Below are positions 3,971-40,603 of a stretch of DNA of 64,000 nt, one piece after another. How positions within the stretch are numbered: the first letter of the stretch is position 1; each line of letters opens with the position of its first letter. The DNA is taken from positions 4,038,085 to 4,102,084 of the forward strand of contig OX422192.1 in NCBI GenBank assembly GCA_949130485.1. Direction: 5' to 3'. The position numbers and the translations under genes are program-made. This stretch comes from Agelas oroides (lineage: Eukaryota > Porifera > Demospongiae > Agelasida > Agelasidae). The notes under the pieces were generated by a model. It was not told the DNA's origin. It searched no databases and saw only the letters and a program-made list of their open reading frames with translations.

Positions 3971-4450
3971 CTAAATATTTAACTCAACAACGATAACAAG
4001 GTTGGTGTTGATTGTTATTGATAACTGAGGTTTGGTGCGACTCCTGGAGATAATCAGAAGTGAGCTCTTTGTCGGATTAATCGAAAGGCCAGAGGATGTG
4101 ATCCAATTGGATATTAGATCCACATATGGCTGGAAGATGGTTGAATCATAGCTTGTACAGAGGGGTCGGTACAGTAAGATGTCGTCTGCATAGAGAATGA
4201 CAGTGGACCCAGGAGAGAAGTGGAGTTCGGCCAGGGAGTTAATGTAAGTGATGAATAACAGGGGTCCCAGAATGGACCCCTGTGGGACACCAGAATGAAC
4301 AGGGAGCAATGTTGAGGAGTAGCCATTGAGCACAACTTTTTGGGAACGATTGGAAAGGTAGCTCTCGAACCATTTTAGTAATGGCCCTGAGACGCCAACA
4401 GTTGACAGAGAACGGAGGAGGGACTTTGTCAAATGCCTTAGACATATCAA
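3971..4450 (-). pseudogene. Reverse transcriptase fragment with YADD active site
   Basis: This 159-codon frame holds the second half of the RT palm: a WFESYLSNRSQKV helix, HSGVPQGSILGPLLF and LYADDILLY (catalytic aspartates), followed by thumb-like residues. It overlaps the upstream fragment at 4239-4625 in a different frame, so at least one indel separates them. It continues, again with a frame change, into the C-terminal fragment 3835-3269. Confidence 0.85.
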
Positions 4451-4625
4451 GGAATGAGGCAGCTGAGCTTAGACCATGATCTAAGTTTCTCTGCCAGTCA
4501 TGGGTAGCAGTCAGGAGTGCCTCCTGGGTTGAGCTGCCAGGTCGGAATCCAAACTGTCTGGGGGAGAGGATGGAGTTTGTGATGAGATGGTGCAGGAGCC
4601 TATTGTGAACAATACATTCAAGCAA
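4239..4625 (-). pseudogene. Reverse transcriptase fragment, N-terminal palm motifs
   Basis: This 128-codon open frame contains the FGFRPGSSTQEAL motif and FLDMSKAFDKVP, the first catalytic aspartate region of a LINE reverse transcriptase. It then runs out of frame into unrelated residues; the continuation is in the overlapping frame 4450-3971. It is part of the truncated non-LTR element spanning about 3262-4645 and has no start context of its own. Confidence 0.8.
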
Positions 4626-4726
4626 CTTGGAGGGTATGGACAGTATTATAGGCCATGGTAAAAAAAAAAATGTTTCTCAGGCAAAACTTTCTCCAAATTA
4701 GGGTAGGGGGGGAGGCTCTTTTTTTT

Positions 4727-11109: not shown

Positions 11110-12020
11110 TTATGACCAAAACTGCAAAAGAGTGATAACTAGGTGAATGCACAGCATTGTGGGGGCGAGCGTGAGCTCGAATGCGATGGATGCGCAAGTG
11201 CGTGCAGTAGAGTGTGAGCGAAGCTGAAGGCCTGGGAACCGCTCCGAGCATGTAGTACATTTCTGCATTTCCAATGCAGCAATCTCTGCATGAAACTTCC
11301 GCATCTTAGCCTGAACAGAGGGCTGTTCAAACAAAGGCAGCTGTGACTGTTGTCCTCTTTGCCCTTCCCTGTTACGCTGTAGTCTGGCCTCTCTCTCACT
11401 GCCAGTCTCAGCAGCCAACCTGCATTGTGATGTTGGTTGGCACTCATCTGCTGTAGCCTGGCTGCTCTCTCTTCTTCAGTCTCAGAGGCCAGCCTGTGAC
11501 ATTGGTTGGCACTCATCTGCTGTAGCCCGGCTGCTCTCTCTTCTTCAGTCTCAGAGGCCAGCCTGTCCCTCATCTGCTGTAGCCTGTCTGCTCTCTCTTC
11601 TTCAGTCTCAGAGGCCAGCCTGTCCCTCATCTGCTGTAGCCTGGCTACTCTCTCTTCAGAGGCCAACCTGTTGGCACTCATCCTGGCTGCTCTCTCCTCT
11701 TCAGTCTCAGAGGCCAGTCTGTCCCTCATCCGTTGAAGCCTAACTGCTCTCTCCTCTTCGCTTTCAGTTGCCAGACTCTGACGTCTGTTATCGCGTATTT
11801 GCCGCAATCTGGCGTCTCTCTCTTCGACAGTCTGTGCGGCGCGTCTAGCCCTATCTCTTGCTCTCCGCACTCTCAGCCGTTCCTCTCCCTGTTCCGCGGT
11901 TTCAGAGGCACGACGAGCTCTCTCTCGCTCTCTTCTACGCTGCAGTCTGTCTTCTCTGTTCCGTGATGACTCGGGGACTCTGAAGAATCGACTCCATTGT
12001 AGAACACGTGGCGTCTGCAC
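11110..12020 (-). pseudogene. Helitron-type N-terminal protein, frameshifted
   Basis: The frame from 12020 gives about 200 residues dominated by RLASETEEERAARLQQM-type repeats. These are strongly charged and predicted to be helical or coiled-coil, with MSAN insertions in three places. Near 11420 the coherent sequence moves to the frame 11418-11110, which continues ETGSEREARLQRNREG, then LPLFEQPSVQAKMRKF and a CTTCSERFP zinc-like motif. That order matches the start of Helitron polyproteins as I know them. The frame change near 11415, and the lack of Rep and helicase domains, show a broken gene. Family assignment is from motif style, not a search. Confidence 0.6.
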
Positions 12021-12160
12021 TATACGTTGACGTTACGTGCGTTAAATTGGATAAGTTTAGGATATGCGGCACGACGTACGACACATAATATATAATATAT
12101 ATATATAAAAGAAAGTCGCCGTTAGCATCACTAGAAGGGGGCTCGCTCACGCTCGCCCCG
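11130..12160 (-). mobile_element. Helitron-like element, GGGGCGAGC family, carrying N-terminal ORF
   Basis: The ends carry GGGGCGAGCGTGAGC motifs in inverted orientation (GGGGGCGAGCG at 11160-11170; CTCACGCTCGCCCC at 12146-12159). The same ends occur at 18810-19485 and 45327-47196. The minus strand encodes an Arg/Glu-rich repeat protein like those at the N-terminus of many animal Helitron polyproteins. Only this 5' part of the coding capacity remains, so it is a truncated or non-autonomous copy. It directly abuts the Helentron-like copy A. Confidence 0.6.
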
Positions 12161-12292: not shown

Positions 12293-13305
12293 GGTGGCAC
12301 GGTCGTCCCTCGGCGGAGGTTAACGAAAACATAAACTTGGGTTACAGTCAGGACCAGGGTTACTCCTAGTTTCAGGGTTAGGGTTTGGTTTAGGGCAATC
12401 TTGCTTTGCCTAATTTTAAAAAGGGTTTTAGTAGCTCATTAATATATTCATGAACCCAAAATTGCCACTCGATGGACGCATCTACACGCTCACTGTAGGT
12501 AGCGTCCCAACCACCAATGTATCTCAAATCAATCTATGCCAGCTTTTGTTCAAAGCTACTCTCAAAGTCAGGCTAGACTCATGTTTGTCACTACTCTTGG
12601 AATGGACAACTTTGACTGCACCAAAATCAAAGCACATTTCGAAAAATTCACAGCTTGTCTACGGGAGGGGCTCATTCACGAGTGGAAGCAAGCATTACTA
12701 GCCCCACCTCTCCCCCTTATGTCGCTAAACAACTCACGGCTCTGTTCCACACACAGCCACCGTTCAGCTCCCTTGTCTGTCAGACTGTAGCATGCACAAA
12801 CGATAAATTGCGTATTCTAGTTAAAGCCCAGCCCAGCACTCGAAGCACCTGGCCACGGTCACCAACTAGACTAGGCATACGGCCGCGAGACCTGGGCCTA
12901 CTCAACAAATACAGTCTTGGCCACTGTGGCCTTTTTGCTGCTTCTAGACACAAGCTTGCTTTCACAAGCAGGCATCACGCACTACTCACAGCTACAGACA
13001 CTACAGCACTCTACTAAACTCCTTCTCTTTTTTTTTTTTTTTTTTTAAGTCGATCTAAGCTTATCTTCAAAGTTCCGAGCACCACATGAAGGGTGCCGCC
13101 AGGCCACATCTTAACTAACTTAATTATAAACTGATTATTGGATGGCAATGCCGACAGGAAATGGGGAAAATCCCCAATTTTACGGACCGTGAACGGTTTG
13201 AGACTCCCAAAACGGAATGTGCGCTAAAATTTTAACAAGACAAAGAAGACTATCAACTTGGATTCCAGGTTTGTTGACCTTGAAAATGCAGGGTACCGTG
13301 CCACC
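12293..13305. mobile_element. 1013-bp TTAA-target DNA transposon, twin 1
   Basis: The ends GGTGGCACGGTCGTCCC and TACCGTGCCACC share an inverted 10-11 bp core (GGTGGCACGG). They are flanked by TTAA on both sides (12289-12292 and 13306-13309), typical of piggyBac- or Kolobok-like insertion. The interior has a poly-T tract near 13028 and no credible protein: the parallel open frames are equally open in the twin at 13995-15009 but show no motif. A third, much-invaded relative spans 35152-42966. Confidence 0.85.
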
Positions 13306-13994: not shown

Positions 13995-15009
13995 GGTGGC
14001 ACGGTCGTCCCTCGGCGGAGGTTAACGAAAACATAAACTTGGGTTACAGTCAGGACCAGGGTTACTCCTAGTTTCAGGGTTAGGGTTTGGTTTAGGGCAA
14101 TCTTGCTTTGCCTAATTTTAAAAAGGGTTTTAGTAGCTCATTAATATATTCATGAACCCAAAATTGCCACTCGATGGACGCATCTACACGCTCACTGTAG
14201 GTAGCGTCCCAACCACCAATGTATCTCAAATCAATCTATGCCAGCTTTTGTTCAAAGCTATTCTCAAAGTCAGGCTAGACTCATGTTTGTCACTACTCTT
14301 GGAATGGACAACTTTGACTGCACCAAAATCAAAGCACATTTCGAAAAATTCACAGCTTGTCTACGGGAGGGGCTCATTCACGAGTGGAAGCAAGCATTAC
14401 TAGCCCCACCTCTCCCCCTTATGTCGCTAAACAACTCACGGCTCTGTTCCACACACAGCCACCGTTCAGCTCCCTTGTCTGTCAGACTGTAGCATGCACA
14501 AACGATAAATTGCGTATTCTAGTTAAAGCCCAGCCCAGCACTCGAAGCACCTGGCCACGGTCACCAACTAGACTAGGCATACGGCCGCGAGACCTGGGCC
14601 TACTCAACAAATACAGTCTTGGCCACTGTGGCCTTTCTGCTGCTTCTAGACACAAGCTTGCTTTCACAAGCAGGCATCACGCACTACTCACAGCTACTGA
14701 CACTACAGCACTCTACTAAACTCCTTCTCTTTTTTTTTTTTTTTTTTTTTAAGTCGATCTAAGCTTATCTTCAAAGTTCCGAGCACCACATGAAGGGTGC
14801 CGCCAGGCCACATCTTAACTAACTTAATTATAAACTGATTATTGGATGGCAATGCCGACAGGAAATGGGGAAAATCCCCAATTTTACGGACCGTGAACGG
14901 TTTGAGACTCCCAAAACGGAATGTGCGCTAAAATTTCAACAAGACAAAGAAGACTATCAACTTGGATTCCAGGTTTGTTGACCTTGAAAATGCAGGGTAC
15001 CGTGCCACC
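13995..15009. mobile_element. 1015-bp TTAA-target DNA transposon, twin 2
   Basis: Nearly identical to 12293-13305 over its whole length: I see only a few substitutions, plus a longer poly-T. It lies in the same orientation, with TTAA at 13991-13994 and 15010-15013. Each copy has its own TTAA duplication and different flanks, so they are two recent insertions rather than a simple tandem duplication, unless conversion has homogenised them. Confidence 0.85.
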
Positions 15010-16076: not shown

Positions 16077-16331
16077 ATGGGTCACGACCTGGAGATACGG
16101 CAATACAGAATCAGCATGTTGTGTGCTCTTCGGAGAGTCTCTGTTTACTCTCGGTCATGCATTGTACAATGGGAGCTGCTTCAGCTTGGGCTGGCCACTC
16201 TGGGGACTGCCCTAGCTCTCTACTACCTGATGGTGTGCCTATCCCTGCTGATGGTACAGGAGATCCTACTGTCTACGTTAGTGCTGGTGATGGTGTGCAC
16301 CTGCCTGAGTGTGATACTAAGACCATGGAAG
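16077..16331 (+). CDS. NLR gene exon 1: hydrophobic leader (candidate)
   Basis: An ATG in good Kozak context (ACCATGG) follows an in-frame TAG at 16044-16046 and opens 85 codons ending at AAG/GTAGGT, phase 0. After a basic 30-residue start come two long hydrophobic stretches (LQLGLATLGTALALYYLM; then about 20 more apolar residues), so it would be a membrane or signal segment. It is clearly paralogous to exon 2 in the LQLGLxTLG block, but has no 2A motif. It splices in frame to exon 2. Alternatively it is an upstream decayed leader and translation starts in exon 2. Confidence 0.5.
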
Positions 16332-16495
16332 GTAGGTGTTGGTTTGATAAAGGATGTAACACCATCAGTGAGTTTTGTGCCCTAGTCGCTTGTGGAACTT
16401 GGGCTCGCACAGTGTGCAGTTCTGTCCATCAACATTACATTCAATGTTTGACTGTCAAGAAGTAATAACATCTATCTGCATTCCTTCCTCTGCAG

Positions 16496-16703
16496 GATAC
16501 CTTGAGATCCAATGTGACATGCACCCTCACCTCCCCCACCATGGGTAATGAACAGGAGACGACAAGGAACAAACTCTGTACTGGAGGGTGGGACCACCTC
16601 CAGCTTGGGCTGACCACTCTGGGGAGAGTCTACCTTCTGGTGTACCTCTCCTTGCTGCTACTGCAGGCAGGGGATGTGGAAAGAAATCCTGGACCTACAC
16701 CTG
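16496..16703 (+). CDS. NLR gene exon 2: signal-like leader ending in a 2A-like motif
   Basis: The acceptor follows a pyrimidine tract (TTCCTTCCTCTGCAG), and the donor GTAAAT leaves phase 1. Within it, an ATG at 16541 in near-perfect Kozak context (CCCACCATGG) starts a 52-residue leader. Its order is a polar start, a hydrophobic LGRVYLLVYLSLLLLQ core, then GDVERNPGP. That is the D-V/I-E-x-N-P-G-P consensus at which ribosomes skip a peptide bond before the last Pro. Sea-urchin and sponge NLRs are known to have such 2A leaders acting as signal sequences, giving cytosolic or exported protein depending on skipping. Activity here is inference; the motif is intact. Confidence 0.85.
16541..16543 (+). 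promoter_or_regulatory. Likely NLR start codon in optimal Kozak context
   Basis: CCCACCATGGG matches the vertebrate-type Kozak consensus at -3 and +4. Starting here gives a leader of ordinary signal-peptide length (52 residues to the 2A Pro) and a total protein of 935 residues in the seven-exon model. Use of exon 1 instead gives 1035. Confidence 0.6.
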
Positions 16704-18322: not shown

Positions 18323-18589
18323 TACCTACTTCAGACCTCCCAAAGCTAGCCCGGCTTCCAGTGGCACCTGATTGGTGGAGTCTTGGTGTCCAACTGGGCT
18401 TGCCTCTTGACCGACTGCGCAGCATTCAATACAACAATGTACAGTATCCTGATAGTTCTAATCGGTGTCTGACAGATATGTTTGATTGGTGGCTGAAAAG
18501 TGATTGTGAATCCACCTATGAGAATCTGGCCACTGCACTTCGTGCTATAGGCAGGAGGGATCTTACACTGGAAGTTTGTAGAGAAAACA
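18323..18589 (+). CDS. NLR gene exon 3: DEATH-like domain
   Basis: The exon is phase 1 at both ends (acceptor AG at 18321-18322, donor GTGAGT at 18590). A second acceptor at 18333-18334 keeps the same phase and would drop four residues. About 80 residues fit the death-domain fold: DWWSLGVQLGLPLDRLRSI, RCLTDMFDWWLK, then YENLATALRAIGRRDL. The spaced Trp, the LG.qLGL start and the ..L..AL..ig ending are typical. Such domains recruit adaptors or effectors by homotypic contacts. If the 2A skips, this domain would sit only a few residues from the new N-terminus. CARD/DED-like alternatives are less likely. Confidence 0.8.
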
Positions 18590-19525: not shown

Positions 19526-21280
19526 ATCTCGACATGGTACCTGGAACAACTGCTTCAGCAGGCAACAGTGACGACCTTCCTGTTAATAGGTATGCAGAGT
19601 ACCTCAAATCAAAGTATGCTTGTAAAACACTACTCGAGGATGAAAAAAGGCACTATGCATCCAAAAAAGGGACAAAGTATATAAACCTTGCTGTTGTTAG
19701 AAAAGAAAGTATTGACAAATCAGAAATGGACAAATTTACTGAGGCCACCATACATGGAAATATTGACGATATAATAAGGAAGAAACAATCACTGGAACTT
19801 AGTGAGGTGGGTCGACTGGAAGATGGTTCCCTAGCTAGGTGTGTCCTAGTGCAGGGAGCCCCTGGGGTAGGGAAGACTACGATGGCCTGGGAGCTGTGCA
19901 GACAGTGGGGAGAAGGAAGGCTCCTACAAGAATACTCCCTACTAGTTCTACTGAAGCTACGAGACAGTTGTGTGCAAAAGGCTACAATTGTCACTGACCT
20001 GTTCTTTAATTCTGATCGCTACCTCCAGTCAGAGACAGCCAGAGAGGTCAGCCAGAGTCATGGGAATAGAACTGCATTCCTGTTAGAAGGTTATGATGAG
20101 CTTCCGCAAGAGTTGCGAGAGAACTCCATATTTGCTCAACTTATCGATGGAGATATTTTTCCAAAGGCTGGTGTCATTATCACAAGCCGTCCTTCAGCAA
20201 GTGATATTCTATTTAAGCACTGCTGTCGGCAGAGCTACCAACATGTAGAAGTGCTAGGGTTCACAGAGGAACAAATAAACAGCTATGTGAAAGAGAGCTT
20301 TAGTGCTGGTGAACAGTACCAGCGTCAGTTTGAATCATATCTTGCCTGCTACCCACACATTCGTGCATTAATGTACATCCCGTTGAACTGTTCAATTGTC
20401 ATTGATGTGTATCAATCCAGCAAGACAACGGACAGCATTGTTCCCAGGACCCAGACAGAACTGTACACTGTTCTCACCAAGATCCTACTCAGCAGATATC
20501 TAACAGCTCATAAAGTACATGGAAAGGAGAGGAGGTGGAACTTACACAGTCTTGCAGATGTTCCCTCAGACATTGGACAAAACCTCCTGAAACTTAGTGA
20601 ACTGGCATATCAAGGCATTGTCCATCAGCAGTTGATCTTTCACACCATTCCTTCAGATCTGGAGACAATGGGACTCATGGACATGGAATATGATGAATTG
20701 GAATCAGTTTCATACAACTTTCTTCATTTGACCATACAGGAATTTCTTGCTGCCTACTATGTATCAAAGCTACCACCATCTCAGCAAGCCCGAATAATAG
20801 ATAAATCTATAGGAAAAAAACATTTTGTTATCATGTTGCGTTTTTTTGCTGGATTAACAAAGTTTAATATTCAACATAGTTCTGATAGTTCCTTTTCTTC
20901 CCGACTTTTTAAGTTCCTTAAGGAGCTAGTGACGAGAACACCAGTAAAGTGTCTTCGAACATACTATAGCCAAAGTAGCAGTAAACTAGAGAGCTTGCGG
21001 TGGATGTTTGAAGCCCAAGATAAGCAGCTCCTGAGACAGGCACTTGGCACTGGAACACAAGACCTGAATTGTTTTTTTCAGACACTAGCTCCATTTGACT
21101 GCTATGTTCTAGGCCATTGCATTGCTTACAGTGACTGCCAGTGGAAACTTGTTCTTTGGTCATGCAATGTTGGAGAAGAGGGCATGAGGATGCTGGCCAG
21201 AGGGAGTAGCGACTGTCTTCACAATGTTCAGAAGATCAACCTCAGTGAGAATGATTTGAAGAATGGAGTTACACACCTGG
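19526..21280 (+). CDS. NLR gene exon 4: NACHT ATPase
   Basis: This single 1755-nt exon encodes the nucleotide-binding oligomerisation module. Numbering from the Met at 19534: Walker A GAPGVGKTT at 108-116; Walker B-like AFLLEGYDEL at 181-190 (first acid is Glu, not the usual Asp); sensor-1-like VIITSRP at 214-220; LGFTEEQI at 241-248; and the helical-domain signature FLHLTIQEFLAAYY at 396-409. The C-terminal part starts the first LRR (WKLVLWSCNVGEEGM, then VQKINLSENDL). The preceding acceptor (CTCTTTAG) joins exon 3 in phase 1; the donor GTAATT at 21281 is weak but leaves phase 1. No internal stop is present, so the receptor core appears intact. Confidence 0.9.
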
Positions 21281-22969: not shown

Positions 22970-23476
22970 TTGCACATTTAGTACCTATTATATTACACAC
23001 ATAGTGAGATTACATTGCCAGATTTATAATTAGCACCTGACACAATGAGGACATGTCCCAACAAGGAATGTTGTAACATGCCACTTGGGACAATGAGAGT
23101 ATTACAGATAGTAATAGACAAGTTCAGTGTTGAGAGTGATATAGGAACATCATTGATCACTGTGTACACATGTTCATTGTTACAACATTCCTTGTTGGGA
23201 CATGTCCTCATTGCACATTTATGACCTATTATATTACACACATAATGAGATTACATTAATTAGCGTGGATATGACACTTGGGACAATGGGAGTATTACAG
23301 ATAGTAATGGAGTGAGTTCAGTGTTGAGATTTCAGTGAGTGCATTAGGAGGAACATTGATCACTGTGTGTGCATGTTCATTGTTACAACCGTCCTTGTTG
23401 TTGGGACATGTCTTGGTTGCGTCAGGTGACTTTACTGTCACTTCCATAATGACTGTTTTGTTGTGTCCTGCTACAG
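22970..23476. repeat. Intron repeats preceding LRR exon 5
   Basis: The block CACATTTA(G/T)...ACCTATTATATTACACACATA occurs at 22972-23005 and 23213-23245, and in diverged form at 24640-24670. ATGAGGACATGTCCCAAC at 23045-23062 is repeated inverted at 23197-23214. The block running into the exon (GTATTACAGATAGTAATGGA ... GTCAGGTGAC) also precedes exon 6 (24725-24907). These mark duplication of an intron-plus-LRR-exon unit. Confidence 0.75.
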
Positions 23477-23644
23477 CATCTGCCCTGAGGGGGAACACTG
23501 TCCTAACTGACCTGAGTCTGAGGGACTGTGGTATTAATGCTGAGGGAACATCTCACCTGGCGCAAGCACTGTGTGACATCACCACACTGAAGGAACTGGA
23601 CTTCAGTGGGAATACTGTTGACTCACAGGGTGCTAGACACCTTT
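23477..23644 (+). CDS. NLR gene exon 5: two LRRs (168 nt)
   Basis: This symmetric phase-1 exon (acceptor TGCTACAG, donor GTAAGT) encodes 56 residues, two 28-residue RNase-inhibitor-type LRRs: LTDLSLRDCGINAEGTSHLA and LKELDFSGNTVDSQGARHL. It closely resembles exon 6, and their upstream intron sequence is duplicated too. Confidence 0.85.
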
Positions 23645-24314
23645 GTAAGTTGAGTAGTGGGGTCAGGGGTGATGGACCAGACTGTGTCAGTGTGGTACAT
23701 CGAACAGTAGATGTCTTTTGTCCAAAATGTGTCCACAATATCTTTGTATCAGTGTGTAACTAGTTAGCTATCAAACCCATTGTGTTAGCTAAGTAAACAG
23801 ATACAAAGTAAAAAATTGCATACCTACCCACAACAAGGCTTTGAGCATGTCACCATGGATACTGAAACTCAAGTCTCCATTCAAACTAGATTAGATCATA
23901 GACTAGGTAGTAGTTTCATGATTGATTGTGGAAGCACATACCACCTAGACGAGGAGTATAAACACAGGTATACTCTGCTAGTCAGTTTACATACCTGTAG
24001 TGTCGTGGAAGGTAAACAATCTAGCTGAGTATATCGTTTTTATATTCTCCACTTCACCCTTGTTTCTGTAGTAACAGGTGGGTATTCCATATACTGACAG
24101 GAAGTTGTAGATTCTGTTTCATATACCACAGGAAGTTGTAGATTCTGTTTCATATACCACTGGAAGATGTAGATTCTGTTTCATATACCACAGGAAGTTG
24201 TAAAATGATGTTTCCAATAAGCTACCTTTTTTACAGTGTGAACTACCTTGCATATTTACTAATAACAACAAGGACCAATCAGGTTGGAGAATATAACACA
24301 TAATGCATGCTAGT

Positions 24315-24399: not shown

Positions 24400-24907
24400 A
24401 CCTTGCATTAGTAACTTATACCACATTGAGGCAGTAAAGTGATGTCTTTCATGTGAAAATGACCTACTCTATTCATCCAGTAAAATACTTACAGAATGAT
24501 GTGATGTATAATTAGAGGTACCCGTGAAGTTTCTACTTACATGAGTATGAGAGGTATCCACTTCAGTGATGCTTTTTCAAGTGTGTCCTGGATGACATGT
24601 TGTTTTGAAATGCTAGTCAGAGTTTTTGCAACATGTTTTGCACATGTACAAGCCTTTATTCAACACACATAATCATAATTAGATTTTACATTGTACTTGA
24701 ATCTATGGCACTTTAGACAATGAGAGTATTACAGATAGTAATGGAACAATTTCAGTGTTGAGATTTCAGTGAGTGCATTAGGAGGAACATTGATCACTGT
24801 GTGTGCATGTTCATTGTTACAACCTTCCTTGTTGGGATATGTCCTCATTGTGTCAGGTGACGTTACTGTCACTTCCATAATGACTGTTGTGTTGTGTCCT
24901 GCTACAG

Positions 24908-25075
24908 CATCTGCCCTGAGGGGGAACACTGTCCTCACTGAGTTGAGACTGGCACGCTGTGGTAATGATGCTGAGGGAACATCTCACCTTGTGCAGGCAC
25001 TGTGTGACATCACCACACTGAGGGTACTGAGCTTGAGTGGGAACACTGTGGACTCACAGGGTGCTAGACACCTTG
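24908..25075 (+). CDS. NLR gene exon 6: two LRRs (168 nt)
   Basis: It has the same length, phase and splice sites as exon 5, with a similar sequence (LTELRLARCGNDAEGTSHLV, LRVLSLSGNTVDSQGARHL). Differences concentrate at exposed LRR positions. Exon duplication together with its upstream intron is evident. Confidence 0.85.
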
Positions 25076-25732
25076 GTAAGTTTAGCGGTGGGGTCTGAGG
25101 TTGCTCACCCGTAACTAACATATCCCTTGCAGTAATACCAAGCTTAATTAATTAACCCCTTAATCCCTATAGTGCACTTTTGGTTACATCATACTGCGCA
25201 CTGCGCAGAAAAGATAGTCTATGCATGCTACGCGCGCTGGTTCTGCGTCAGCAGAAAGGGTGGGACAGGGGGAGGTGGGTGGGGTCACACGCAGGGTGAC
25301 ACGCACATGGTGGCTGCTAGGCTTGGCTGTCAAAGCGCCATGGTTGGGACCGGGTGGGCCAACTCTCACCCTGGCTGCACGGACAGGCTTAGAGAACGCT
25401 ACTCTCACCTTGTAGGGGGTTCATTTCTGGCAAGGAAGGCTGCTTGGCTCTGAGTGGGTGTATGACAACCGAGAGTGCTGACTATTGCATGCTCGTTAAT
25501 GAGTGGGCATGGTCAAGGTCACAAGTCTGCTTGCTAAGGCTGGAAGTGGACTTAGGCTCAGTTTTGGAGTCAGAGCTTGACAGAAATGGAGATACAGTGC
25601 ATTAAAGGCATGTATAGGCTAAAGCTAGTCTCCAGTGAAAATAATTCAGGGTTTAAAGAGTTATATAATATTATACAAGGATGCTACAACTTCGTCAACA
25701 AGGTTGTGACATGGTTGAAACAGGGTTGTGGA
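25076..25732. other. NLR intron, no gene seen
   Basis: Open frames around 25172-25453 occur in three frames at once over a GC-rich stretch, with no motif. I regard them as chance. Confidence 0.4.
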
Positions 25733-36631: not shown

Positions 36632-38014
36632 CCTCTCCGCCCATGGGTCCTTGTTCACTGTAATGGAACTATTCTTGTAGCACACTGCAATTGCATGGCT
36701 GAACTGGCCGAAACTTGTTCACACGTGGGTGCTGTTCTTCACACCCACCCAAAGTATCCCATACTTACAGCTCAGTGAGATTGACTTTAGTGCTCCTAAA
36801 CGTAAAAAAAGTTGATCTAGCCCCTTCTTTTGCCCCTGTTCCTGTTCGTAAGTCAATAGCCCCATCACAGACAGAGGACACCTTTTTTAGTGAGATAGCT
36901 ACAAAGCAAGAAAAGAAACCAATAATACTTTCAATTGTCGAACCATACAGAGAAAATTTTATTCACCACAGAGACCATGTTCCTCAGCTGCTATATGAAA
37001 TTTTCAAGCCTGTCCACTTGGAGTACAACTACACTCAGTTGCTGACACTAGCAAACGATTATGCTTAGGTCAAGGTAACTCCAGCAATGGTGAGCTGTTT
37101 AGCTCAATTGACATGAGACCAGTCTAAATCAAAACTCTGGTTTCAATTTAGAGCTGGAAAAATCACTGCCTCTCGACTTAGGCAGGTACTTCATACAGAT
37201 CCCCACCAGCCTTCTCTGTCATAGCTAAAAAGTATTTGCTACCCTGAAATTGACAGGTTTAGCACCCAAGCTACTTCATGGGGTTGTGAACACGAGAAGG
37301 AGGCACTTCTAGCTTATAAAGCTCAGATGGTAACAAATCATGGAAGTTTTGAAATCTCATGTTGTGGTTTCTTTGTCAGTGCAGAACACCCATTCTTAGG
37401 CGCTTCACCTGATGCACTCATTCAGTGTGACTGCTGTGGTCAGGGTGTCATTGAGATCAAATGTCCACTGTGTGCCAATCAAATGTCATTTGTGGAAGCA
37501 GCTGATAGAGTTGGAACTTTCTGCCTTAGTGAACTATCTGAAACTTAAGTTGAAGTGCGATCATAGTTATTACTACCAGTGTCAGCTGCAAATGTTCGTG
37601 ACAAAGCGAGATATTGTTGTATGGTCACTGGTAGAGCTACATATTGAATACATCACAATAGATGAGACACTAATTCAGTCCGCTATTCCAATTGCTGAGA
37701 AGTTCTGGAGGTTGTGTGTCCTTCCTGAGCTATTGGGAAAATGGTACACGCGTAGGCAAGCTCACAATGTTCAATCTGACTGCATAGAGACTGAGGAAGA
37801 CAGCGGGACCTGGTGCTACTGCAGGGAAGACAAAGGTGGAGAAATGATTGCCTGTGATAGTAAAGTCACATGCATAAAGTGGTTCCACCTTGACTGTGTT
37901 GGGATGTCAGCATCTACTGTACCTCAAGGAAAATGGCTATGCACAACATGCCATTCAAGTGAACATAAAACAAGTCACCAAGTAACATTTAAGTTTATTA
38001 AAATTTTGTTGTAG
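36632..38014 (+). pseudogene. SWIM - YqaJ nuclease - PHD transposon protein, broken
   Basis: 36650-36778 encodes a SWIM zinc finger ([19 protein letters not shown]). From about 37125 comes the YqaJ nuclease start ([19 protein letters not shown]). Then 37327-37548 carries FLGASPDALIQCDCCGQ and VIEIKCPLC, with the catalytic Asp and the Glu-x-Lys pair visible. After a frame change the 37412-38014 frame continues (HSYYYQCQLQMFVTKRD) to a PHD-like finger (WCYCREDKGGEMIACD...WFHLDCVGM...WLCTTC). Stops near 36776, 37065 and 37218 and at least one frameshift make it a pseudogene. The nuclease presumably served transposition; that is inference. Confidence 0.75.
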
Positions 38015-38069
38015 CATGAATGTTCAGGAGAATGAACATAATTCAATGTAATAACATGCATAAAATTAA

Positions 38070-38486
38070 CTAGATAAAAGGTACGACACCTTCAAGCACA
38101 TTGTTAAGAGCACAACAAACCCTAACAATTGAGTCCAAAACTACTCTTCCACTAGTTTTATTTGAAACTAATTTCTTAGGCAAGACCCCTGATGCAGACA
38201 AAATCTGGAAACGCTGACGTACTACTCCAATGATTCTTTCCACATGAATCCTCACATTTGCTAATTTTCTGGTAGCTTCAACATTACCAGGAGGTAACTG
38301 CTCACACCCCCTAGTGAAGGCCGGAATGTCAAGAGTGGCACCACAATATGCTATGGAGTCAGCGATATCGAATCCCCTGTCTGCAAGGACAACATCGCTA
38401 GGGAGTAGATTATTCGAATGTTGAAATGTTTGCATTGAGACTTGGGATGGAAGTTCTTTCGATTTATGGCATTTAATTTTAACCAC
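38070..38486 (-). pseudogene. DDE transposase C-terminal part (DDE_Tnp_4-like)
   Basis: The 138-codon frame includes VVLADRGFDIADSIAYCGA, LDIPAFTRGCEQLP, TRKLANVRIHVERIIGVVRQ and RFQIL. These match the Asp and Glu motif regions of Harbinger/ISL2EU-type DDE transposases (DRGF, then RIHVERxIGxxKxRF). The N-terminal half, with the first Asp, is missing, cut where a TAGCCTCG MITE is inserted at 38516. It is convergent with the YqaJ-type gene, as expected of an ISL2EU layout. Confidence 0.8.
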
Positions 38487-38515
38487 AGCGTTCTCTTAGG
38501 TTCCCTCGCTGGAAT

Positions 38516-39222: not shown

Positions 39223-40603
39223 TTGAGAATGAACCAACGCTTCCTCAATTTACCCCCATGGCAGACCCTGTATTACTCAACACAGTTTACTGACAACCTC
39301 AACGCTGCCTTTGCTGAGGCTGTGCACTGGAAGATGAATCTCTTCAAGGTCCCCTATGGGAAAGCAGGGAAGTCATTTGTTTCTGAGCTAGCTAGACTAT
39401 TTAAGGCTTTTGCCACTAGCTCTGCTCTCGAGTCTGTTGCTCTGAAAGCAGCTACACTCATGCCTATTCTCCTACTCCAGAAGCCTGCCCGCAAGTCAAA
39501 AGCCAAAGACCACATCACATGCCTTGAACGACGACTAGACACCTGGCGAGAGGGAGACCTGAATGAATTATTGAGAGAGGGGAGAACAATACAACAACCC
39601 ATCTCCAAGACTTTGCCACAATGAACAAATTTCTCACTCATTCGCTAATTTGATGTTCCAGGGTAAGACCAAGGCGGCACTTCGCCTCCTCTCTGAACAG
39701 AGTAAGGGAGGTGTTCTCCATTTGGATGATCCTATTGAAACTGAGAATGGACAAAGAAAGGTGATGGACATCCTTCTGGAGAAACACCCTCCATGTCAAC
39801 CAGTACACAATGACGCAATCATTAATGATGACACCCCTGATGTTCACCCTGTTCTGTTCGAATCTCTGGATGCTGCGGCGATTAGATCTGCCGCATTGTA
39901 CACCAGTGGAGCAGCTGGACCCTCTGGTCTCAATGCACTTGGATGGAGAAGGCTATGCACTTCGTTCAAGACAGCATCCTTTGAGCTTTGCCAGTCCCTT
40001 GCTTTTACAGCAAAATGCCTCTGCACAGAATTTGTTGATCCAGTAAGCATTGCACCTCTCATGGCCTGCTGCCTCATTGCCCTAGACAAGAACCCTGGTG
40101 TTCGGCCCATCGGTATCGATGACACAGCTAGACGCATCATTGCTAAAGCTATTTTAAACATCACAAGACAAGACATACAAGAAGTAGCCGGCTCTGTACA
40201 GCTCTGTGCAGGTCAGATTTCAGGCATTGAGGCAGCTGTGCATGCTGTTCGCACCCTGTTTCACAGAGAAGAAACTGAAGCTCTCCTATTAGTTGACGCC
40301 AGCAACGCCTTTAACTCCCTTAACAGACAAACAGCTCTACACAACATCCAGAGACTTTGCCCCTCCCTTGCTACTGCTCTCATCAACACCTACAGAGCCC
40401 CCTCTGAGCTGTACGTAGACGGAGGTGTACTCCTATCTCGTGAAGGAACCACTCAAGGGGACCCACTGGCTATGCCAATGTACGCCTTGGCAACCATTCC
40501 CCTGATCAGGAATTTGAAAGACAGTGTGAGTGATGTAATTCAAGTATGGTATGCTGATGATGCTTCTGGTGCTGGAAAGATCACCAGACTACGTGAGTGG
40601 TAG
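39223..40603 (+). pseudogene. Retroelement RT region
   Basis: Frames 39223-39624 and 39650-40603 are parts of one protein: near 39618 the coherent sequence (SHSFANLMFQGKTKAALRLL) shifts frame. The RT palm is clear: KNPGVRPIGIDDTARRI, LLLVDASNAFNSLNR, LLSREGTTQGDPLAMPMYAL, QVWYADDASGAGKI. The frame ends REW-stop at 40603, where TAG stands where a second Trp codon is expected. Confidence 0.85.

Follow-up and report, generated by a model that had tools for sequence, protein, structure and literature searches.

A candidate 2A ribosome-skipping element between a hydrophobic leader and the DEATH domain in receptor genes of the sponge Agelas oroides

A close known counterpart of the 2A discussed here is SpNLR2A of the sea urchin Strongylocentrotus purpuratus, in which the 2A studied forms 26 aa at the very N-terminus and also serves as the signal peptide (Roulston et al. 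2016, PMC4981915). According to the introduction of that paper, 2A is present in about 35% (85 of 241) of the S. purpuratus NLRs, and according to its results 14 of 87 NCBI entries have the 26-aa N-terminal form; a sea urchin NLR 2A gives about 80% skipping in vitro, and a non-skipping mutant goes mainly to the Golgi. The same paper names the 2A of non-long-terminal-repeat (non-LTR) retrotransposons, which has the same octapeptide as the gene reported below. In viruses, the leucine-rich 2A/StopGo motifs 2 and 6 of Li et al. (2026, PMC12846837) share the core (D/G/C/N)(V/I)ExNPGP and have a leucine-rich hexapeptide ending in (A/S/C)G before D; such contexts are a recognised class, in which one representative of motif 6 is active in vitro and motif 2 is unassayed, and StopGo is called rarely used in cellular genes there. 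Among sponges, NLRD of Dysidea avara has the domain order DEATH-NACHT-LRR (PMC12909245), and the two terms "signal peptide" and "ribosome skipping" have 0 occurrences in the main text on it. Here we present an analysis of a stretch of 64,000 nucleotides from the sponge Agelas oroides (assembly GCA_949130485.1, contig OX422192.1, positions 4,038,085 to 4,102,084; the window), in which an NLR gene has the octapeptide DVERNPGP between a hydrophobic leader and a DEATH domain. A first-pass annotation of the window, made from the sequence alone, had referred to 2A leaders on NLRs as described in both sea urchin and sponge. The sea urchin precedent stands, but no report on 2A in sponge receptors was found in the literature searched, in which "2A-like" in PMC5890393 is part of the name of another protein; a study of 2As from eukaryotes and viruses (Rao et al. 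2025) may overlap.

On the whole, the order membrane leader, 2A and DEATH is a genome-wide arrangement in this sponge, and the gene of the window is one instance of it. We consider it probable that, by skipping, the conserved membrane leader is split off from a DEATH receptor in the cytosol, and that a minor share of the product stays linked to the membrane as a fusion. The gene itself belongs to a tandem array of five receptor genes of the order leader-2A-DEATH-NACHT, and in the window copy LRR frames come after it (Table 1). A genome search with the window leader gives five near-identical leaders on contig C10, each followed by a NACHT exon on the same strand; the window copy is the fourth of the five, and the other four are 89-96% identical to it. 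Four exons join in frame without a stop in all five paralogs (830-831 aa, GT-AG ends, matching phases), the reading frame of the 2A thus being open on both sides of the site, and the octapeptide, which matches the 2A/StopGo core, is intact in every one. The first-pass annotation had described an exon ending in GDVERNPGP and spliced in frame to DEATH and NACHT exons, and this is confirmed: the second leader exon, whose frame reads ...RVYLLVYLSLLLLQAGDVERNPGPTP and ...LGRVYLLVYLSLLLLQAGDVERNPGPTP, lies between a CTGCAG acceptor and a GTAAAT donor and joins the DEATH exon in phase 1, which is followed by the NACHT exon, with DEATH and NACHT, two of the domains expected for a DEATH-NACHT-LRR receptor, above the Pfam cut-off. 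Despite the shared exon order, phases and splice ends, the introns of the five paralogs differ. The ratio of nonsynonymous to synonymous substitution rates (dN/dS), from pairwise values summed over the five paralogs, is 0.43 in exon 1, 1.23 in the first 27 codons of exon 2 and 0.23 in its last 44 codons, 0.59 in the DEATH exon and 0.33 in the NACHT exon.

Translation had been taken in the same annotation to start from a Kozak ATG at 16541, inside exon 2, and this part of it does not hold well. In the alignment of the five paralogs the ATG reads AAG in two, L009 and L012, of which L009 has no Met in exon 2 before the 2A and L012 has one six codons past that position. Upstream, an exon with an ATG is open over 255 nt in phase 0 in all five paralogs, with the donor GTAGGT replaced by GTATGT in one of them. 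The intron between the two leader exons varies by indels, and the length change in exon 2 is 6 nt, which keeps the frame. Exon 1 is matched by 11 database proteins, 10 of which start at the same Met, with P0244 having that Met internally; the likeness reaches the donor and then fades across the next 10-15 residues, not abruptly, so that the homologs alone do not place the exon boundary. Since the ATG is absent in two of five paralogs and the upstream exon joins in frame in all five, 16541 is probably not the start codon of the window gene, and the short leader as the sole start was rejected. With an ATG and 85 open codons of exon 1 in every paralog, the leader would be two exons long, with about 152 residues, three hydrophobic stretches and the 2A at residues 145-152. 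This bears on a dual targeting of the sea urchin type, in which a short signal peptide carrying the 2A would be made from a start at 16541, the receptor being secreted when there is no skip and cytosolic when there is. Such a scheme has its precedent in the 26-aa N-terminal 2A signals (PMC4981915), and ACCATGG with its ATG stands at the 16541 position in three of five paralogs, a fourth having a Met six codons on. Nevertheless we regard it as unlikely, given the paralog without any Met in exon 2 before the 2A, the dN/dS of 1.23 just across the first 27 codons of that exon, the upstream ATG exon in frame in all five, and the distance of 120-160 residues between the 2A and a plausible Met (chosen by the author) in the 10 leaders measured, eight of which are outside the array. 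In SpNLR2A the 2A is found inside roughly the first 26 residues; in the window gene, even counted from 16541, the octapeptide begins at residue 45.

Beyond the array, the octapeptide is widespread. Three patterns of D[VIM]ExNPGP match 285 places in the genome (140, 79 and 66), and the reversed-pattern control gives 0 matches for each of the three; chance occurrence was rejected on this count. The sequence was read at 45 of the 285 places (three duplicates dropped), plus L053. At 40 of the 45, the first GT[AG] within 24 nt past the octapeptide falls in phase 1; two have it in phase 0, one has it in phase 2, and two have none. The leader frame of L021 is broken. As a separate observation, identical DNA of the octapeptide (GACATTGAAACTAATCCTGGACC) is seen on several contigs (C1:10533858, C2:15228207, C16:3299464 and others), in some cases inside long open frames (the longest 1749 aa), and may belong to a repeated element. 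It might also be supposed that the 2A arrived with a mobile element, outside a receptor gene, or by chance. The window is rich in mobile elements, and at least one 2A place (L024) adjoins frames that look by eye like reverse transcriptase, which is probably a 2A-bearing retrotransposon and seems to be a case of the non-LTR kind. However, exon order, phases and splice ends are alike in all five paralogs, the window gene has exon-intron structure and no reverse-transcriptase frame among its exons, the coupling of 2A to DEATH described below is specific for strand and order, and the reversed control is 0. We thus give this explanation almost no weight, and for the 2A of the window gene a retrotransposon origin was rejected from the shared exon structure.

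The coupling was measured with one DEATH exon from a 2A-bearing ankyrin-type gene as the query, and the best 150 of 803 candidates were scored. A 2A lies upstream on the same strand within 5 kb of 104 of the 150 DEATH exons and within 10 kb of 113, counts which a query taken from a 2A gene favours. Downstream on the same strand the corresponding numbers are 1 and 8 of 150, and on the opposite strand 0 and 0. When all 2A places are shifted by 30-200 kb, a control that allows for their clustering, 2-17 DEATH exons are reached, and uniform placement gives a mean of 0.86. When the 36 DEATH exons most closely related to the query are left out, a 2A within 5 kb upstream is still found for 71 of the remaining 114, with none downstream and none on the other strand. 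Nine places have 2A and DEATH no more than 45 nt from each other, and by position all nine pairs share the frame; the gap sequence at one of these, L045, is open. Outside the nine, L014 has 2A and DEATH in one open frame, and the database protein P0239 has leader, 2A and DEATH as one frame (Pfam 4.7e-05). Two weaker probes give lower numbers: with Pfam Death (150 of 870 scored), 15 of 150 have a same-strand 2A in the 10 kb upstream and one has it downstream, the opposite strand giving 1 and 0, and with NACHT (105 of 314 scored) the 2A is upstream in 12 of 105, downstream in one and on the opposite strand in none. With a profile from eight seed exons, a DEATH-like frame is found downstream in 17 of 20 2A stretches, the eight seeds included, and not in L020, L024 and L027. 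The DEATH exons behind the 2As of L014, L015, L018 and L026 are slightly under the Pfam cut-off, and the DEATH-like frames of L023, L025 and L028 have no Pfam match. DEATH directly behind the 2A, pointed out for the window gene in the first-pass annotation, is common here and not peculiar to that gene, and the arrangement is shared by many DEATH genes.

The genes so coupled are of several kinds, with the downstream domains outside the C10 array assigned by open frame. NACHT lies behind DEATH in the window array and on C8 (L049). A NACHT-LRR part follows in one frame in L015 and L018 and over two frames with a stop between in L016, and L014 has LRR and no NACHT match. Ankyrin repeats follow DEATH in L022 and L026, as well as behind the DEATH-like frame of L025, and ZU5 (4e-08) is found downstream of a 2A place on C11, in a further frame after the DEATH frame (L051:570-2999). 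Some 2A-DEATH genes thus have no NACHT domain in the stretch read. Two minor observations are added here. The frame L050:1314-2873, downstream of a 2A place on C9, has two Death stretches (4.1e-18). In the C1 family (L021:5893-6927, L018, L019), a conserved KPPFGCGCGKCTF...IPSASSF.Y is located between DEATH and the ankyrin or NACHT parts; the frame of L021:5893-6927 has no Pfam match.

As to the leaders, 10 were measured, two of the C10 array among them, and each has two to three stretches above 1.5 on the Kyte-Doolittle scale. Several dissimilar leader types share their ending, which in most is a hydrophobic stretch, [AS]G and the octapeptide. An N-terminal M[GP]-x5-6-WRA[RK]IG is common to the leaders read on C1, C2, C3, C4, C7, C8, C13, C14, C16 and C22, and is missing in those on C9, C11, C17 and at the start of C1. 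Genome searches give 88 matches for the C1-type leader (best 150 of 194 candidates scored) and 41 for the C8 type (all 98 scored). Merged, the two types make 118 loci, and the octapeptide lies within the match or at most 600 nt after it in 110; among the eight loci without it, seven are partial matches and one is full length (C3:504208). For the full-length leaders alone the proportion is 98 of 99 (65 of 66 and 33 of 33), a biased number, since full length includes the 2A. A leader profile matches 1130 database proteins, and the best 120, mostly of the C1 type, have D[VIM]ExNPGP in 119 and NVETNPGP in one, a count that favours copies keeping the 2A, as the query words include it. Conservation in these 120 is among the highest over the first ~28 residues. 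Signal-peptide sequences are usually not conserved. The N-terminal part of the leader is conserved, not only its hydrophobic core, and so a released leader would likely have a role of its own. Of the signal-like leader first described, the hydrophobic leader ending in 2A remains, but it is longer, has a conserved N-terminus and two to three hydrophobic stretches, and looks unlike a simple signal peptide. In addition, the region 16170-16260 in exon 1 of the window gene repeats, in diverged form, the hydrophobic part of exon 2 at 16589-16667, with a local score of 31 where none of 500 shuffles exceeded 14; the likeness stops just short of the 2A, and the copy in exon 1 has none. An AlphaFold model of the C1-type leader shows three helices with a predicted local distance difference test score (pLDDT) of 52.

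For the separation of leader and receptor, we propose the following course. Ribosomes would first make a hydrophobic leader of about 150 residues, and most of them would fail at the Gly-Pro bond after ...GDVERNPG, so that the leader is released as a separate small membrane protein. Translation would then continue into a free cytosolic receptor (DEATH-NACHT-LRR) starting with PTPVPTSD, PTPVPTSDLPKL... A minority of ribosomes would pass without a skip and give a fusion that the leader either holds in a membrane or directs into the secretory pathway; the fusion, having two or three hydrophobic stretches, may sit in the membrane, with DEATH facing either way. The ratio of skipped to fused product would be set by the 2A and its leucine-rich approach, and this approach, LLLLQAG before D, resembles by eye the leucine-rich class with (A/S/C)G before D. 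The element may instead be a conserved motif or a relic without skipping, in which case a single membrane-anchored receptor would be made. The R at the variable position of DVERNPGP is not among the residues favoured in viral 2As (PMC12846837), which fits a relic and counts against active skipping. On the other side, the exact octapeptide is kept in 110 of 118 leader loci of two types, and the leucine-rich approach resembles a class with an active representative (PMC12846837). We consider a relic quite improbable, though somewhat less so than a mobile-element origin.

Besides the R, several points weigh against the separation of a membrane leader from a cytosolic DEATH receptor as we read it. 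At L032, L043, L044, L047 and L048 fewer than 55 codons are open before the 2A, where the leader may be split or broken, and L024, whose 2A place is followed by the reverse-transcriptase-like frames and a cysteine-rich stretch, looks like a retrotransposon. The coupling is measured with the favourable query mentioned above, and for 46 of the 150 scored DEATH exons the 5 kb upstream contain no 2A. Of all 285 2A places, only 122 are followed within 10 kb by a scored DEATH (10 are preceded by one), the 122 being a lower bound since each DEATH search scored only 150 candidates. The topology of the leader is left undecided by its charges, and the model of the related leader is poor at the pLDDT given. 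Finally, a start at 16541 may be possible for the window copy too.

Compared with the known systems, 2A on NLRs is already known from sea urchin, and what is new relative to it is the long conserved leader, the breadth of the DEATH carriers and the non-NLR carriers. Unlike in SpNLR2A, the leaders here have 120-160 residues with two to three hydrophobic stretches and, in several types, the N-terminal M[GP]-x5-6-WRA[RK]IG, and they also precede DEATH with ankyrin or ZU5. Unlike the viral 2A/StopGo, the elements are cellular, usually at the end of an exon with a phase-1 intron, ahead of DEATH. The 285 octapeptide places, with 122 of them at most 10 kb upstream of a scored DEATH exon, speak against the rarity of cellular StopGo, and a skip signal considered uncommon beyond viruses seems to be ordinary in this animal. 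This offers a natural multi-family system for asking what skipping is for, and also means that receptor N-termini are mis-called where the leader exons are overlooked. More tentatively, and with rather less confidence than in the separation itself, we suggest that innate immunity in this animal could use the 2A as an established device: a cassette made up of a conserved small membrane protein and the 2A would have spread on phase-1 introns to about 100 or more DEATH receptors of several kinds, each mRNA giving, in a fixed proportion, one partner in the membrane and one receptor in the cytosol, with the leader as a functional partner (anchor, sensor or brake) and not a signal peptide.

Table 1. 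Parts of the receptor gene in the window, with position, strand and supporting detail
Feature	Position	Strand	Detail
Leader exon 1	16077..16331	+	ATG in ACCATGG; 85 codons; donor GTAGGT at 16332; phase 0
Hydrophobic stretch 1 (leader residues 42-58)	16200..16250	+	Kyte-Doolittle window
Hydrophobic stretch 2 (leader residues 63-79)	16263..16313	+	Kyte-Doolittle window
Leader exon 2	16496..16703	+	ends in 2A and phase-1 donor
Hydrophobic stretch 3, running into the 2A (leader residues 130-146)	16628..16678	+	Kyte-Doolittle window
2A/StopGo octapeptide DVERNPGP	16673..16696	+	predicted skip between Gly and Pro
DEATH domain exon	18323..18589	+	Pfam Death 8.2e-08, above cut-off; 267 nt in 5/5 paralogs
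NACHT and HD2 exon	19526..21280	+	Pfam NACHT 1.2e-22, above cut-off; NLRC4_HD2 4.8e-07, below its cut-off; open in 5/5 paralogs; 3' end placed at a GTAATT donor, inferred
LRR frame, probably LRR exon of the window gene	23308..23760	+	Pfam LRR_6 2.2e-07
LRR frame, probably LRR exon of the window gene	24742..25095	+	Pfam LRR_6 1.1e-04, below cut-off

Elsewhere in the window, an Rfam scan gives 0 matches. Frames of a YqaJ-like recombinase, a PHD finger and, on the other strand, a DDE_Tnp_4 transposase are clustered at 37225-38495, and RVT_1 reverse-transcriptase fragments are located at 4242-4676 (-) and 39575-40600 (+). A frame of STPR repeats lies at 11142-12032 (-, 8.3e-17). Furthermore, two nearly identical 133-aa frames at 12616-13017 and 14318-14719, the first of which has no Pfam match, form a direct repeat.
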